From assembly GCF_003712195.1 (NCBI RefSeq), contig NZ_RDSD01000005.1:1-64000 (forward strand): a DNA stretch of 64,000 nucleotides, read 5' to 3'. Numbering within the stretch: the first letter of the stretch is position 1; every line of letters starts with the position of its first letter. The translations under genes were made by a program, and so were the position numbers. The notes below the pieces were generated by a model that saw only the letters and a program-made list of their open reading frames with translations, had not been told where the DNA came from and made no database searches. The DNA comes from Proteiniphilum sp. X52. GTDB lineage: Bacteria; Bacteroidota; Bacteroidia; Bacteroidales; Dysgonomonadaceae. Shown here one piece after another: positions 35,826 to 42,916 of the stretch.

Positions 35826-36614
35826 TTAATTGAGTAACGACGCGCTTTCTTCATCCAGGTATAGTATGGTGTCTTCTTTTGTCCTCAAGATGGTAGCAGG
35901 ACATTTCTCGCTGATCTCTTCATTTAGAGTGCGGTAGACCGCCTCAGCCTTGTTTTTGGCCGGTACCATGCAGAACATATATTTAGCTTTCAGCAGGGCA
36001 GGAATGGTGACCGTAATAGCATGGGTAGGCACCCTGTCTATACCGGGAAACAGATTCTCATTTACCTGCTGTTGCCTGCAAGCCAAATCCAGTTCTACTG
36101 CTTTGACTTGTTTCGGATCATTGAAGTCTGCCACAGGTGGGTCGTTGAATGCAATGTGCCCGTTTTCTCCAATCCCGAGGCAAACAATATCTACCGGGTA
36201 CTGATTCAGCAACCCCGCATATCTTTCGCATTCGGCGTGAGGATCTTCGGCCCCGCCGTTTATATAATGGATGCTTTTGAACGGGACTTTGGCGAAAATA
36301 CGCTCTTTCAGGAAGTTACCGAATCCTTGCGGCGCGTCTTTTTCCAATCCTATATACTCGTCCATGTGAAAGGCGTTGATCTTTTCCCACTGGATCCGTT
36401 TGTCGGCAATCAGTTCTTTCATGAAATCGCTTTGCGATGGCGCGGCCGCAAAGATCATGTTGATTTCCTCTTTTTCTCCGAGTAATTGCCGGATGGTCTC
36501 CGATACCTTTTCCGCCGCTTCCTTACCCATTTCCTCTCGCGTGTGGAAGATCTTCACTTCCAACATTCCTTTGGTGAATGTGATTACATTCGCGTTAATT
36601 TCGGTGTATGACAT
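35826..36614 (-). CDS. nagB: Glucosamine-6-phosphate deaminase family protein
   Basis: I set the start at 36614 (MSYTEINANV), giving 262 residues, the normal family length; the frame extends further but the extra 20 residues lie in nagA. Signature parts are HTREEMGKEAAEKV, NAFHMDEYIGL with the catalytic Asp, DIVCLGIGENGHIAFNDPP with the catalytic His, and THAITVTIPALLKAKY. It converts glucosamine-6-phosphate (or, in some relatives, galactosamine-6-phosphate) to a ketose phosphate and ammonia in the cytoplasm. The overlap with nagA suggests coupled translation. Confidence 0.88.
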   Translation of the reverse strand: MSYTEINANVITFTKGMLEVKIFHTREEMGKEAAEKVSETIRQLLGEKEEINMIFAAAPSQSDFMKELIADKRIQWEKINAFHMDEYIGLEKDAPQGFGNFLKERIFAKVPFKSIHYINGGAEDPHAECERYAGLLNQYPVDIVCLGIGENGHIAFNDPPVADFNDPKQVKAVELDLACRQQQVNENLFPGIDRVPTHAITVTIPALLKAKYMFCMVPAKNKAEAVYRTLNEEISEKCPATILRTKEDTILYLDEESASLLN

Positions 36615-37782
36615 TTCCTTCCAAGATTGTGTATGAAACATTAATATTATCATCAAAAATAACAAAATCAGCATCCTTGTTTTTTTGGATAGATCCTTTC
36701 TGCCGATCTATCTTCATCATGCGGGCCGGGGTTAAGGTCATCATCTTTACCGCTTCCACCAAAGGGACTTCGGCTATGTTTACCATGGTTCTGACTAATC
36801 GGTCGGTGGTGGCAACACTTCCGGCAAAAGCGGTGCGATCGGGTAGTTTTGCCACACCATCCTCGATGATCACCTTTTGCCCCTTGTCGAGGCTACCCAG
36901 GATAGACTCACCGTCAGGCATCCCCGCTCCCCGCATTGAGTCGGTACATAGCGCGGTTTTGTCAGACCCTTTGAATTTATATACGAACTGAAGCAACGAC
37001 TTGGGCAGATGTACCCCATCGGCAATGATCTCCACATTCATGTCATCGATCAGGTAGGCCGCTTCCACAATACCGGCATACCGGAAGGCATTTCTGCGGG
37101 TGACGGTCGACATGGCCGAATAGAGATGGGTAATATGGTTGAATCCGGCGTTGTAGGCATCCACAACCTCTTCATAAATAGCATCGCTATGGGCGATAGA
37201 GGTGAGGATATTTTTGTCCCTGAGAACTTTCCCAAACTCCAATGCGCCGGGCAGTTCCGGCGCCAGGCTCCAACGGACGATGTCGTCCGACGCAGCCAAT
37301 ATCTTATTGTATTCTTCCGGTTCGGGATTTCTGAGGTATTGGGGATCCTGAGCACCCCGCTGGTTATAGGCGAAATAGGGGCCTTCAAGGTGGAGTCCAA
37401 GCAATTTGGCTCCTTTGGTGTTCTGTTTTACCGCTTCTTTATAGGTGGAGAATGTTTTCATCAACTCTTCGAATGTGCTGGTAAGGGTTGTAGGTAAAAG
37501 CGCGGTAGTCCCGTGCTTTGCATGTGTTTCGGCCGCACCGAGGTACGCTTCCACAGTTCCGTCCATAAAGTCATGTCCGCCACCACCATGGGTGTGGATA
37601 TCGATGAATCCGGACGACACATATTTGTTTTGGGCATCGATGACCACATCTCCGTCTTCCGAAATAACTTCGTGAGGGTTTGCAATATCGACTATTTTCC
37701 CGTTCCCACACACAATGGCCAGATTCTCTTCTATCCTATCAGGGAAGATGATCTTTCCGTTTTTTATGATGATTCGACTCAT
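36595..37782 (-). CDS. nagA: N-acetylglucosamine-6-phosphate deacetylase
   Basis: A 395-residue cytoplasmic amidohydrolase. The metal site and family motifs are present: FIDIHTHGGGGHDFMDG, GLHLEGPYF, TSIAHSDA, GFNHITHLYSAMS, CTDSMRGAGMPDG, and a C-terminal KMMTLTPARMMKIDRQKGSI. It removes acetate from GlcNAc-6-phosphate, feeding NagB. In transcription order it follows the permease gene by 140 bp. Its presence with nagB shows that the pathway ends in amino-sugar catabolism. Confidence 0.93.
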   Translation of the reverse strand: MSRIIIKNGKIIFPDRIEENLAIVCGNGKIVDIANPHEVISEDGDVVIDAQNKYVSSGFIDIHTHGGGGHDFMDGTVEAYLGAAETHAKHGTTALLPTTLTSTFEELMKTFSTYKEAVKQNTKGAKLLGLHLEGPYFAYNQRGAQDPQYLRNPEPEEYNKILAASDDIVRWSLAPELPGALEFGKVLRDKNILTSIAHSDAIYEEVVDAYNAGFNHITHLYSAMSTVTRRNAFRYAGIVEAAYLIDDMNVEIIADGVHLPKSLLQFVYKFKGSDKTALCTDSMRGAGMPDGESILGSLDKGQKVIIEDGVAKLPDRTAFAGSVATTDRLVRTMVNIAEVPLVEAVKMMTLTPARMMKIDRQKGSIQKNKDADFVIFDDNINVSYTILEGNVIHRN

Positions 37783-37799
37783 ATAATTAAAAATTACTA

Positions 37800-37926
37800 A
37801 TTACTAATTACTGATTACCAATTATCCACATCGGTCCATTAGCACATTACTCTCATTGGCATATTGGCCTATTATTCTTATTAGCACATTATTCTTATTG
37901 TCACATTATTCTTATTTGCACATTAA
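37800..37926. repeat. Degenerate tandem repeats between nagA and the permease
   Basis: ATTACTA units at 37793-37818, followed by four or five degenerate units of about 17 to 22 bp built on TTAGCACATTATTC (for example near 37840, 37880, 37897 and 37915). Very similar CACATTGGCACATT words occur at 46514-46605. Confidence 0.65.
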
Positions 37927-39275
37927 TCTTGTTTTCTCCATGATTTTATTTTGTGTCCACTGGCAGCGTACCAAACAATATAGGCAAAGCAGGGAATCAG
38001 GATCCAATATCCCCGCTTCATTGCTTCAAAGGGAGATAAGGAAGCATTCAATTCCACAAAAGCATTGTACACAATGGGCATGATGGCGCTTCCGCACAGA
38101 GCCATCACCAGGAATGAGGCTCCCAGATTGGTGTATTTGCCTAACCCGTTAATAGCCAGTGGCCAGATGCCGGCATAGAGCAACGCGTTTGGAAGCCCCA
38201 TCATTACTAAATACCAGAGGGAGATATCGGAAGTGATACCAAGAAACCGCACCGTTCCCGACGTGGTTATTATCATCACGGATAGCAGCAAATTGATGGA
38301 GGCACAAATCAGGAGGGCGTTCCGCTGCTTCAGGTATTTTGGTATAAGCGCGATACCCAAGAAATAACCGATAAACGTCAATAACATGGTATAAGAGGGG
38401 ATATTCTGGGCTGGTCCCGCCAGACTCTCCCCCATAGTCCCCGCGTATTGAATACTGGTGCCCAACGCGATCATTTGGGTTCCTATATGAAAGAACATGG
38501 CGATCATCCCTAAAATAAGTGCCGGATATTGTAAGATGGATTTACGTGAATTTATATCTTCTGCCGACTGTTTATTTTCTATAGAGGGATCTAAATCAGG
38601 CAAAGGTGAGTGACGGACAATTATACCGAAGATAAAAAGCGCCATACCCAAAATGAGGTAAGGTGTCATCACTCCCTTTATCAAGGTGTCTAAAGCTGTT
38701 TCCAGGGCTATCCCGGTGTAATTTCCCGCTTCAATCTCCCGCATAAGTACTTTGTCGGATTCCCTGATAACGACGGCTGCGAATATCAGATTGGCAATCA
38801 CTCCTGCCAGTTTATTGCCGGTACCCACCATACTCATCCTTTTGGCCGCGCTCTCCATGGGGCCCACAATAGTCACATAAGGGTTAGCCGCAGACTGAAG
38901 AATAGTCAACCCCGCTCCCAACAGGAATAATCCCACAAGAAAGATTTGATAGATACGCCAGTAAGCAGCCGGAACAAAAAGCAAAGCTCCTATCGACATA
39001 CACCATAGTCCAAACATCATCCCTTTTTTATAACCCACCTTGTTCAGCAGGAAGGAAGAGGGTATTGCCATGATCAGATAAGCGATATAAAAGGCAAATG
39101 TCACCAGATAGGACTGGAAATTCGATAATTGGAGTGTTAGCTGGAAATAGGGTATTAAAATAGTGTTTACCCACGAGACCAGTCCGAAAATAAAAAACAA
39201 TAACGCCAATATTATCATCGACTTGATTGTTGTGCTCCTGTCTTGTACATAATTAATTTGAGGGCTGTCACTCAT
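37923..39275 (-). CDS. FucP-type sugar permease (FHS family, MFS)
   Basis: A 450-residue membrane protein of about 12 helices. It has the hallmark of the fucose/galactose/glucose:H+ symporter family: LLFFIFGLVSWVNTILIPYF, FYIAYLIMAIPSSFLLNKVG, GLTILQSAANPYVTIVGP and a conserved GTGNKLAG. In Bacteroidetes, members beside nagA/nagB import N-acetylhexosamines; L-fucose or galactose are alternatives. Its promoter region (39276-39387) contains a -7 box and a palindrome. Confidence 0.9.
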   Translation of the reverse strand: MSDSPQINYVQDRSTTIKSMIILALLFFIFGLVSWVNTILIPYFQLTLQLSNFQSYLVTFAFYIAYLIMAIPSSFLLNKVGYKKGMMFGLWCMSIGALLFVPAAYWRIYQIFLVGLFLLGAGLTILQSAANPYVTIVGPMESAAKRMSMVGTGNKLAGVIANLIFAAVVIRESDKVLMREIEAGNYTGIALETALDTLIKGVMTPYLILGMALFIFGIIVRHSPLPDLDPSIENKQSAEDINSRKSILQYPALILGMIAMFFHIGTQMIALGTSIQYAGTMGESLAGPAQNIPSYTMLLTFIGYFLGIALIPKYLKQRNALLICASINLLLSVMIITTSGTVRFLGITSDISLWYLVMMGLPNALLYAGIWPLAINGLGKYTNLGASFLVMALCGSAIMPIVYNAFVELNASLSPFEAMKRGYWILIPCFAYIVWYAASGHKIKSWRKQD

Positions 39276-39387: not shown

Positions 39388-40551
39388 TTATTCCTTGTGA
39401 GAATCGCCATATTTTTTACGGTACTCAAGAGGGGTATAGCCTTTCATTTTTTTAAAAATACGGGAAATGTTTTTACAATCATTGAATCCTGACTCGAGTG
39501 CGAGATCAAACAGTGTTCTGTCGGTAGTCAACAGTAAATGTGCAAAATAATTGATCCTGCAACTTAGAATAAACTGATAAATGGAGGTTCCCATTTCGTC
39601 TTTGAATTTCACTTCCAGGTTACGCCGGGATAGAGGCACCTGTTCTATTAGAGACTCAATCACGATATTAGAAGTAAAATTATCTTCGATATAATTTACA
39701 ATTTGTGAAATATATTCATTGGAAATATCGTATCTCTCCGTAGACTTGCGGAGCTCGAATCTGGTCGGCCGGATAACGATATTGAAAGGTTCTGTGATTT
39801 CGCCTTTACTCATCCTGTCAATGAGTCTTCCCGCCTCATATCCTCCTTTTTCCACATCTGTGACAATAGAAGAGATAGGCGGGTCGGACAGATTACAAAT
39901 CAGTTCGTCATTATCTACTCCCATCAAAGCAATCTCTTCGGGAATTCGTATATTATTGATCTTGCAGATTTGGGATACCCTTAATGCGAAATTATCGTCG
40001 CAGGCAAACAGACCCACAGGTTTAGGCAGGGACAAGAGCCATTCATCGAGTTGTATATGACTGCTTCCCCATTCCTCCCCATTCAGATTTTCGCTTTCGA
40101 AATAATGATAATTCCCGCCAATTTTTTCTATTTGCGACCTGAATCCTTCTGCTCTTTCTCGTGACCAAACCACTCCCTTATTTCCATAGAATGCAAAATT
40201 CCGGTAACGCCTTTTGATGAAGAATTGTGCCGCCATCTCTCCTGTACCGAAATAATCTCCGGTGAGATTGGAGAAGTAGGGACTCCGTTCTTTGTAATTC
40301 TGAAGTAGAATTGGGATATTCAACGACTTCAGTAGATTTGTTCCTTCATGATCCCAGCGCGCCACAATAGCGTCGGCCGCCCATTCTTTGGCCCACTCCA
40401 CAATCCCCTCTTTACCGTACAGTGTTTTATAGTAGGCGGGTAGGCGATAAAAGATCCAAGGGCCGTGTTCCTTGGAATATTGGATCAACCCTCTGAGCAG
40501 CCGGCGACTGAATTCGCTGGAATAATCAATAAGAATAAGTATTTTTAGCAT
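39388..40551 (-). CDS. XylR-type AraC-family transcriptional regulator
   Basis: A 387-residue cytoplasmic regulator. Residues 1 to about 275 are a LacI-like periplasmic-binding fold (KILILIDYSSEFSRRLLRGL, ADAIVARWDHEG, VGLFACDDNFALRVSQIC, IALMGVDNDELIC). Residues about 280 to 385 are an AraC helix-turn-helix pair (LIEQVPLSRRNLEVKFKDE, FDLALESGFNDCKNISRIFK). This is the xylose-regulator architecture, but in Bacteroidetes the family serves many sugars. Its place before the permease and nag genes suggests it senses an amino sugar or fucose. Its upstream region has a candidate attenuator or sRNA. Confidence 0.9.
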   Translation of the reverse strand: MLKILILIDYSSEFSRRLLRGLIQYSKEHGPWIFYRLPAYYKTLYGKEGIVEWAKEWAADAIVARWDHEGTNLLKSLNIPILLQNYKERSPYFSNLTGDYFGTGEMAAQFFIKRRYRNFAFYGNKGVVWSRERAEGFRSQIEKIGGNYHYFESENLNGEEWGSSHIQLDEWLLSLPKPVGLFACDDNFALRVSQICKINNIRIPEEIALMGVDNDELICNLSDPPISSIVTDVEKGGYEAGRLIDRMSKGEITEPFNIVIRPTRFELRKSTERYDISNEYISQIVNYIEDNFTSNIVIESLIEQVPLSRRNLEVKFKDEMGTSIYQFILSCRINYFAHLLLTTDRTLFDLALESGFNDCKNISRIFKKMKGYTPLEYRKKYGDSHKE

Positions 40552-40627: not shown

Positions 40628-40714
40628 TCGTTTCGCTTAACGGAAAAGTTCAAAAATCGAAAAACACCTCATTTAAGCCTCAAATATAGATATTTTTTTT
40701 AGATAACCAAAAAT

Positions 40715-40805
40715 TAAAAAAAAGAGGCCCCCTCGATCGAGAAGGCCTCTTTTATATCGGTTAACGTGATATCAGCCTTAAGGTAAAAAAGATTGTTTTA
40801 GGTTA
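40715..40805 (-). ncRNA. Candidate small RNA or attenuated leader, about 90 nt
   Basis: Minus-strand transcript predicted from a consensus promoter at 40812-40842 to an intrinsic terminator at 40720-40753. It has no coding frame. The transcript is upstream of the XylR-like gene (ATG at 40551), so it can be a separate sRNA or the terminated leader of that gene. The rpsO transcript is not the source, because rpsO has its own terminator at 41018-41052. Confidence 0.5.
40720..40753 (-). terminator. Intrinsic terminator
   Basis: AAAAGAGGCC (40720-40729) and GGCCTCTTTT (40744-40753) form a 10-bp stem; on the minus strand the stem is followed by a run of nine T. TCGATCGA in the loop can pair further. 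A classic intrinsic terminator in minus-strand reading. Confidence 0.85.
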
Positions 40806-40811
40806 TCGATG

Positions 40812-40842
40812 CAAAGATAGAGCGCTATTTTGAATCTGCAAA
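40812..40842 (-). promoter_or_regulatory. Consensus Bacteroidetes promoter of the candidate sRNA
   Basis: Minus strand: TTTG (40839-40842), 19 nt, TATCTTTG (40812-40819). This matches TTTG-N19-TAnnTTTG exactly and has the same geometry as the rpsO promoter 570 bp away. Start expected near 40805. Confidence 0.75.
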
Positions 40843-41017: not shown

Positions 41018-41052
41018 AAAAGAGGATAAAAACAGTTGTTCCATCCTCTTTT
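41018..41052 (-). terminator. rpsO terminator
   Basis: AAAAGAGGAT and ATCCTCTTTT pair across a 15-nt loop, 19 bp after the rpsO stop; minus-strand reading ends in TTTTTTT. Confidence 0.85.
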
Positions 41053-41070: not shown

Positions 41071-41340
41071 TTATTTTCTGATGCCCAGTTCCTTGATAAT
41101 GGAACGATATCTTTCGATGTCGGTATCAATCAGATAATCGAGTAAACGGCGGCGCTTACCCACTAAAATTCTCAATGCTCTTTCTGTGTTATAATCTTTT
41201 TTGTTTGACTTGAGATGCCCAGTCAAATGCGAAATACGGTAGGAGAACAATGCTATCTGTGCTTCTGGTGAGCCAGTATCAGTGTTGGACTTCCCGTATT
41301 TGGCAAAGATTTCCTTCTTTTTAGCAGAATCTAAGTACAT
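41071..41340 (-). CDS. rpsO: 30S ribosomal protein S15
   Basis: An 89-residue protein with all S15 hallmarks: [40 protein letters not shown], and [12 protein letters not shown]. It binds 16S rRNA early in 30S assembly. It is a single-gene transcript with its own promoter and terminator. It marks the right boundary of the glycan region. Confidence 0.98.
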
Positions 41341-41382: not shown

Positions 41383-41413
41383 CAAAGGTACGTCTAAATT
41401 TGCTAATTCCAAA
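41383..41413 (-). promoter_or_regulatory. rpsO promoter
   Basis: Minus strand: TTTG (41410-41413), 19 nt, TACCTTTG (41383-41390). Exact match to the Bacteroidetes primary-sigma consensus, 43 bp upstream of the ATG. Confidence 0.85.
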
Positions 41414-41647: not shown

Positions 41648-42916
41648 TTATTCCGCTCTTCGCCGTAATTTCCCGCTCAATCGTTTCACGGCATCCATTA
41701 TCTCCTGATCGGGTTCAATGACGTTGTATTCACCCCAGAAGCCAGGGTCAAGAAAATGTTCCACCTTTTCAGCGATTACGTCGGTAGACCTGATCCGTTC
41801 ATTGCGGGGGAATTTCACCACATTGTTGCCATACCTGTCGGTAATGGCCATTTCCGAGCCGATAGAGTAGGTAGTGGCAAACAAGCCGAAGAATCGGTTT
41901 GTCCATCGCACGCGGAATGAAACTTCAGTACTGCTGTAATTAAAGAACCACTTTCCGTTACTTTCCGTAAAATCCACCACATATTGCGCCTTGTTTACTT
42001 CCACCCTCATCTTCGAGGGTTTTCGCCTGATAAATATGTTGGCCGCATCTTTGCGGTCTTCCACATTCATGTTAAATTCCATACGGGCAAAGGCGAGGGA
42101 TGCGGCATCCAGATAAATATTTCCCCTGAACAGGATTTCTTTTATTCCCGGAAGGGGTGCAAATGAAAGGATGTAGTGGGGTTTGTCGTTGATATTGATC
42201 AGGCCCTCGATATGGAATTGATACTCTGATGCATCTGTTCCGAAGACAATCTCCGGGTTCTTGGCAATATCAAGCATTAACGCATCGCTGATACCTCCCT
42301 GAAATTTCAGAAGGATGGTGTCGCGGGGAGAGATATCGGTGGCCTTGCGTCCAATATAAATTTTGGCCTGATCATTACTGTAAGAACTGTAGGTGGCTTT
42401 ATAAATATCCAGTACTGTCTCCACCAATGAAATATAATTTGATCCTTTCTTTACCGACTCGCGATAGAAAGCAACCATCATGTGGGGATTGTCGGGGTAG
42501 TTCTGTGGAATACGTTTCAATGCCTCGCGTATCAACTCTTTTCCGTCGCCCGAAACTACGACAACTTCACTCAGTTCGATGGGGGAGGGCTTTAGGGTAA
42601 TATGATTGTTAGGATTATCGATCAGCGTGATTATCGGAATCTCCCGGTTCTCGTATCCCAGATAACGGATAAGCAGTTGTGAGTTTTTTGTAAAAGCGGG
42701 GACGCGAATGGAGAAATATCCATCCTGGTTAGTGACGCTTGACACATTCACCTGTTGTACCGAAACACTTGCGTTGACCAGCGGCTCTTTGGTGTCGCCA
42801 CCAATCACCCTGCCCCTAAGCAGATAGGTGGAATCCGGCTGGGCAGTATTTCCGGAAAACAGGCTCGAAGTGGGCAGGAGACAAAGAAATAGGAGCAGAC
42901 GGAGCAAGTTGTTCAT
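41648..42916 (-). CDS. CarboxypepD_reg-like domain outer-membrane-associated protein
   Basis: A 422-residue secreted protein (signal peptide ending LFSGNTA). Residues 30 to 115 are a carboxypeptidase-regulatory-like beta-sandwich (LLRGRVIGGDTKEPLVNASV, NQDGYFSIRVP), as found in SusC-type and DUF5686-type proteins. The rest has EALKRIPQNYPDNPHMMVAFYRE and a beta-rich segment that would fit periplasmic or outer-membrane association. No barrel-length C-terminus is present. Function unknown. It is divergent from nadB and unrelated to the glycan locus by position. Confidence 0.7.
   Translation of the reverse strand: MNNLLRLLLFLCLLPTSSLFSGNTAQPDSTYLLRGRVIGGDTKEPLVNASVSVQQVNVSSVTNQDGYFSIRVPAFTKNSQLLIRYLGYENREIPIITLIDNPNNHITLKPSPIELSEVVVVSGDGKELIREALKRIPQNYPDNPHMMVAFYRESVKKGSNYISLVETVLDIYKATYSSYSNDQAKIYIGRKATDISPRDTILLKFQGGISDALMLDIAKNPEIVFGTDASEYQFHIEGLININDKPHYILSFAPLPGIKEILFRGNIYLDAASLAFARMEFNMNVEDRKDAANIFIRRKPSKMRVEVNKAQYVVDFTESNGKWFFNYSSTEVSFRVRWTNRFFGLFATTYSIGSEMAITDRYGNNVVKFPRNERIRSTDVIAEKVEHFLDPGFWGEYNVIEPDQEIMDAVKRLSGKLRRRAE

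Follow-up and report, generated by a model that had tools for sequence, protein, structure and literature searches.

A conserved Bacteroidales small RNA related to BTnc060, with typA as its probable target

Introduction

In the sources consulted, few Bacteroides small RNAs (sRNAs) have published targets, namely GibS, MasB and FopS (PMC7366714, PMC10994844, PMC11697453). GibS is 145 nt long, has a non-canonical promoter, PM2, and pairs with start regions through a conserved single-stranded 5' seed, according to the part of its description used here (PMC7366714). FopS, as presented in the corresponding part of its own report, stands for paralogous B. thetaiotaomicron sRNAs, found in 12–15 copies per Bacteroides genome, which repress susC and other PUL mRNAs, perhaps with RbpB (PMC11697453). 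For a further RNA, BTnc060 (Rfam family RF04184), no described function was found in the literature. TypA/BipA, which will be met below, is a translational GTPase linked in enterobacteria to 50S assembly and to LPS synthesis at low temperature, in the excerpted source (PMC12013901).

The DNA analysed here, called hereafter the window, is a stretch of 64,000 nt, positions 1–64,000 of contig NZ_RDSD01000005.1 of Proteiniphilum sp. X52 (order Bacteroidales, family Dysgonomonadaceae). An earlier note on it had proposed, upstream of a XylR-like regulator gene, either a free sRNA beside an amino-sugar operon or a leader whose terminator controls the regulator. The element is of an ordinary kind, an intergenic sRNA; the new part is that a conserved Bacteroidales sRNA, occurring in several gut and environmental families, probably represses typA, as judged from sequence comparison.

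Results

A promoter-to-terminator unit between rpsO and a regulator gene

The features of the locus are the following.

40812..40842, minus strand: sRNA promoter of the Bacteroidota type, TTTG-N19-TATCTTTG, an exact match
40716..40808, minus strand: predicted sRNA of about 93 nt, 5' end placed from the -7 box; promoter-to-terminator unit kept in relatives
40778..40806, minus strand: 5' motif AUAACCUAAAACAAUCUUUUUUACCUUAA, whose core recurs across Bacteroidales
40784..40800, minus strand: segment predicted to pair with the typA leader (at G000:C8), 17 contiguous pairs with one G-U
40716..40753, minus strand: intrinsic terminator of the sRNA, 15-bp hairpin at 40753–40720, with covariation
40681..40711, minus strand: promoter-like TTTG-N19-TATATTTG for the downstream regulator, directly after the sRNA terminator and 5' of the regulator
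39388..40551, minus strand: XylR-like regulator (Peripla_BP_3 and AraC-type HTH, from domain matches), a neighbour and not part of the unit
41071..41340, minus strand: rpsO (S15, TIGR00952), a neighbour, the conserved upstream gene in the window's family

The unit thus sits, on the minus strand, between rpsO and the regulator gene. The perfect TTTG-N19 promoter described in the earlier note is present, exact, at 40842–40812. Sequences of the form TTTG-N17..22-TANNTTTG occur seven times in the window, versus 2.1 expected, and none of 100 shuffles reached seven. The claim that the rpsO promoter has the same geometry agrees with TTTG-N19-TACCTTTG at 41413–41383, which is identical in layout to the sRNA promoter; a terminator-like hairpin of rpsO is found at 41052–41018. 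A third TTTG-N19 promoter, at 40711–40681, had been overlooked.

Measured from the -7 box, the terminator stem starts at about 59 nt and the RNA ends at about 96 nt. Reading by eye, no ATG, GTG or TTG was seen between the sRNA promoter and the stem, in keeping with the statement that no gene lies there, and no coding is predicted for the RNA of about 93–95 nt. Concerning the terminator, the hairpin and its U tail were correctly recognised, but not their dimensions: instead of a 10-bp stem and nine U, there are 15 pairs (seven G-C), a 4-nt loop and a run of eight T. Over the 10 kb that were scanned, no terminator is stronger. Folding of the 94-nt strand yields -27.2 kcal/mol (z = -3.92, equalled by 0 of 200 shuffles), and the terminator accounts for nearly all of this energy; part of the 5' half is predicted to be weakly paired.

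Comparison with BTnc060, FopS and GibS

At gathering thresholds, no Rfam family matched the window. Below them, RF04184 (BTnc060) matched the locus with 42.2 bits (601 nt, E 3.5e-5), where the gathering score is 228.9, and this was its sole match in the genome. Given that 0 of 149 genomes of the order reach that cut-off, the best one scoring 191.8 bits, the cut-off is very strict. The two RNAs align end to end, with a common core around AAACAAUCUUUUUUACCUUAA and the terminator; the core, ACAAUCUUUUU(U)ACCUUAA, comes shortly after the promoter in both, and the terminator comes at the end. They differ by the second motif of BTnc060, CUAAUACCUAUUGA, which is replaced by CUGAUAUCACGUUAACC in the window's RNA. 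The locus is regarded as homologous to RF04184, yet it is not filed as a member. The RF04184 model is 213 nt long and takes in some 100 nt ahead of the conserved unit; its first 100 positions or so look like upstream DNA that contains the promoter, and two genomes match the model at positions 133–208 only. Of the 23 sub-threshold matches in total, those to BSnc120, BTnc231 and the leader families arose mostly via the terminator hairpin and were judged to be due to chance. No FopS or GibS model was among these 23.

By its predicted build and pairing, the window's RNA nevertheless recalls both. It has in common with FopS, as far as the consulted part of that report goes, a canonical promoter, a single-stranded 5' seed, a terminator and pairing to translation initiation regions (PMC11697453), and with GibS, in the portion consulted, a conserved single-stranded 5' seed pairing with start regions (PMC7366714). 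It could on these grounds be a repressor of susC and other PUL mRNAs, acting perhaps with RbpB, all the more as the genome encodes one RRM protein. Nonetheless, it differs from GibS as there described in length (about 93 nt versus 145) and in having a canonical promoter rather than PM2, and from the multi-copy, susC-directed FopS in being single copy, both in its own genome and in 11 of 13 genomes of genus g73, versus the 12–15 copies given for FopS in the text consulted. Pairing with susC was not found: the mean for 30 SusC starts was -9.66, versus -10.02 for a background of 557 other starts. At those 30 starts, 198 of 200 shuffled seeds did at least as well as the real one; the start codons had been crudely chosen, and often wrongly, so that this result carries little weight. 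A FopS- or GibS-like role is quite unlikely. The sole RRM_1 protein of the genome, at G000:C14:522639-522848, is a possible RbpB counterpart.

Conservation, and independence from the regulator

Of the 101 genomes of the window's family, 71 have a homologue detected by DNA search at E<=0.001. The promoter, as TTTG-N18-22-TnnnTTTG, was found in 56 of 62 rows from this family. In a 49-row family alignment (A1, from which L067, lacking a terminator, L061 and L062, with unparsed core, and near-identical rows were left out), AUAACCUAAAACAAUCUUUU is invariant and the remainder of the 5' motif is less strict. The stem is conserved in relatives, 12 of the 15 terminator pairs showing double changes that keep the pair.

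A covariance model, R1, used with strict filters, matched 31 of 247 genomes of the order, with one copy each; in the distant genus g73, 11 of 13 genomes had exactly one match. When the search was taken outside the order, to a phylum sample of 296 genomes, five matches were obtained: one in the window's genome, two in g73 genomes that had been found before, and two that were weak. The motif is absent from the stretch inspected in these last two, which were discarded. A motif scan of named genomes gave at least 120 loci; the matches listed belong mostly to Bacteroidaceae, Prevotella, Muribaculaceae and other Bacteroidales, and a -7-like box, sought with a regular expression, lies at most 30 nt upstream in 95 of 120 motif loci among the matches listed. 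Matches labelled Roseburia and Clostridium contain a Bacteroides-type RNA and probably come from contaminating contigs. One labelled Berkelbacteria is without sRNA context, as are three exact matches in viral contigs, judged to be due to chance.

The window's genome has one full match. The motif matches two or three times in each of G099 (L054), G038 (L046, L065) and G090 (L063, L064, L067); one of the G038 copies is of the type found in G291 and may sit on a contaminating contig, and L067 of G090 has no terminator.

Is the unit a leader of the regulator? In such a case, the promoter would drive the XylR-like gene, expressed by read-through of the terminator, and the order of the elements, on the same strand and with the terminator upstream of the regulator, fits this idea. 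However, the terminator is followed by a separate promoter (40711–40681), from which the regulator could be expressed without read-through, and a leader is not needed to explain its expression. Moreover, a cis-acting leader or attenuator should stay with its downstream gene, without a promoter in between. Among 61 of the family loci, whose neighbours were read by blastn, rpsO adjoins the sRNA in 42 and the regulator follows it in just seven, the others having different downstream genes or no sequence. In other families the neighbours differ again, and the 5' motif is conserved beside unrelated genes. The leader half of the earlier proposal thus finds no support, and we hold it to be very improbable. 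Its other half, a free sRNA, is well supported by a promoter, a terminator and a 5' motif conserved across many genomes regardless of the downstream gene.

The suggested link of this free sRNA with the amino-sugar operon looks positional, as the starts of xylR, the transporter gene, nagA and nagB pair with it no better than with shuffles; no pairing was detected with these four, with rpsO or with the gene at 41648 (p 0.43–0.93). The genes adjoining the regulator (35826–39275), nagB-like, nagA and a NagP-like MFS transporter, form a probable GlcNAc catabolic cluster; the nagB-like and NagP-like genes score under the curated cut-offs.

Predicted pairing with the typA leader

A search of the window's own genome for anti-seed sites returned 18 sites besides the sRNA itself, versus eight for the reversed pattern. 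One of them immediately precedes the typA/bipA start and offers 17 contiguous pairs (-19.1 kcal/mol). After typA had been picked in this way, the sRNA of each genome was compared with the typA leader (-30 to +6) of the same genome, using dinucleotide shuffles. Pairing was significant (p<0.05) in 20 of 40 genomes of a first set and in 20 of 28 of a second set, which is out of sample but has lineages in common with the first. When all sRNA-bearing genomes were rerun together, 40 of 69 were significant, 23 of 34 in the window's family and 17 of 35 outside it. Judged by median p, pairing is significant for 13 of 30 genera (binomial 7e-10) and for 6 of 14 families (binomial 3e-5).

As a control, other gene starts of the same loci, excluding typA and any windows holding the sRNA motif, paired at p<0.05 in 6 of 147 cases. 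Likewise, when three sRNAs each were applied to the typA leaders of 15 genomes without detected sRNA, 0 of 45 tests were significant. Complementarity to a target start beyond chance and across lineages, expected of a trans-acting sRNA, is thus found for typA. It is absent at this threshold in 29 of the 69 sRNA-bearing genomes, including the whole genera f1g3 and f60g74 and all three f25 genera. No typA leader could be parsed in G118, and in G336 typA was not matched at the cut-off.

Our preferred reading, to which we give a probability of about 0.7 on these comparisons, is that the locus encodes an intergenic sRNA acting in trans, with typA as its most conserved target and repression of typA translation as the probable effect. 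The RNA would be made from its own gene, with a housekeeping-type promoter and terminator, and its 5' half would be largely single-stranded. Its segment UAAAACAAUCUUUUUUA is predicted to form 17 contiguous base pairs with the short typA/bipA leader, the duplex stopping a few bases short of the AUG. In that position it should block ribosome loading and lower TypA/BipA. We infer that the RNA is transcribed, that the pairing takes place in the cell, that it represses rather than activates, and that some signal controls the sRNA. If this is true, a conserved single-copy Bacteroidales sRNA gains a specific and testable target outside sugar metabolism. No link between an sRNA and BipA/typA, or between BTnc060 and typA, was found in the literature at the level of titles and abstract openings.

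A predicted contact site that moves along the RNA

In the genus of the window and near relatives of it, the segment predicted to pair with typA is motif 1. Within g73 most genomes use CUAAUACCUAUU and G349 uses ACCUUAAAA; in G167 the segment is UACCUUAAAAAAUU. In G291, UAAUGCC in the sRNA faces GGCAUUA in the typA leader. By these predictions, lineages use different segments of the sRNA for typA, sometimes with matching changes. Swapping the partners gave, on the G291 leader, -9.6 for the sRNA of G158 versus -17.4 for that of G291; the reverse swap, G291 sRNA on the G158 leader, gave -13.3, still a good pairing. The outcome of the swaps is therefore one-sided only in part. With the partner kept and the contact moving, composition or descent of the leader alone is hard put to explain the pairing.

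We consider it slightly better than an even bet that the sRNA is ancient and common to several Bacteroidales families, and that it serves, as a conserved function, to tune the amount of the ribosome-associated GTPase TypA/BipA, the pairing being kept while the contact moved. It would then be an example of a target retained while the pairing site turns over.

The same observations also bear on whether typA is the main target or one of several in a broad regulon. The 5' motif is near-invariant although the typA-pairing segments vary by lineage, which suggests other partners, as does the excess of anti-seed sites in the genome (18 versus 8), some of them at gene starts, for instance that of a coaBC-looking gene (named by eye). 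With a crude energy, three of 557 sampled starts pair with the sRNA at least as strongly as typA does, which means that typA does not stand alone and that the sRNA may have further targets. On the other hand, these 557 start regions are not enriched for the seed over shuffled seeds. A broad regulon in which typA is not the main target is a serious possibility, at a little under even odds.

Around rpsO, the typA gene is itself sometimes close by: it lies within the 1.5-kb flank in 17 of 59 typA loci, many of them from g73 (L358–L387, L414–L442). In the window's family, rpsO is adjoined by the sRNA gene and not by typA. At locus L109 of G291, the sRNA is by its coordinates directly upstream of a typA-like match, which is probably lepA, another translational GTPase.
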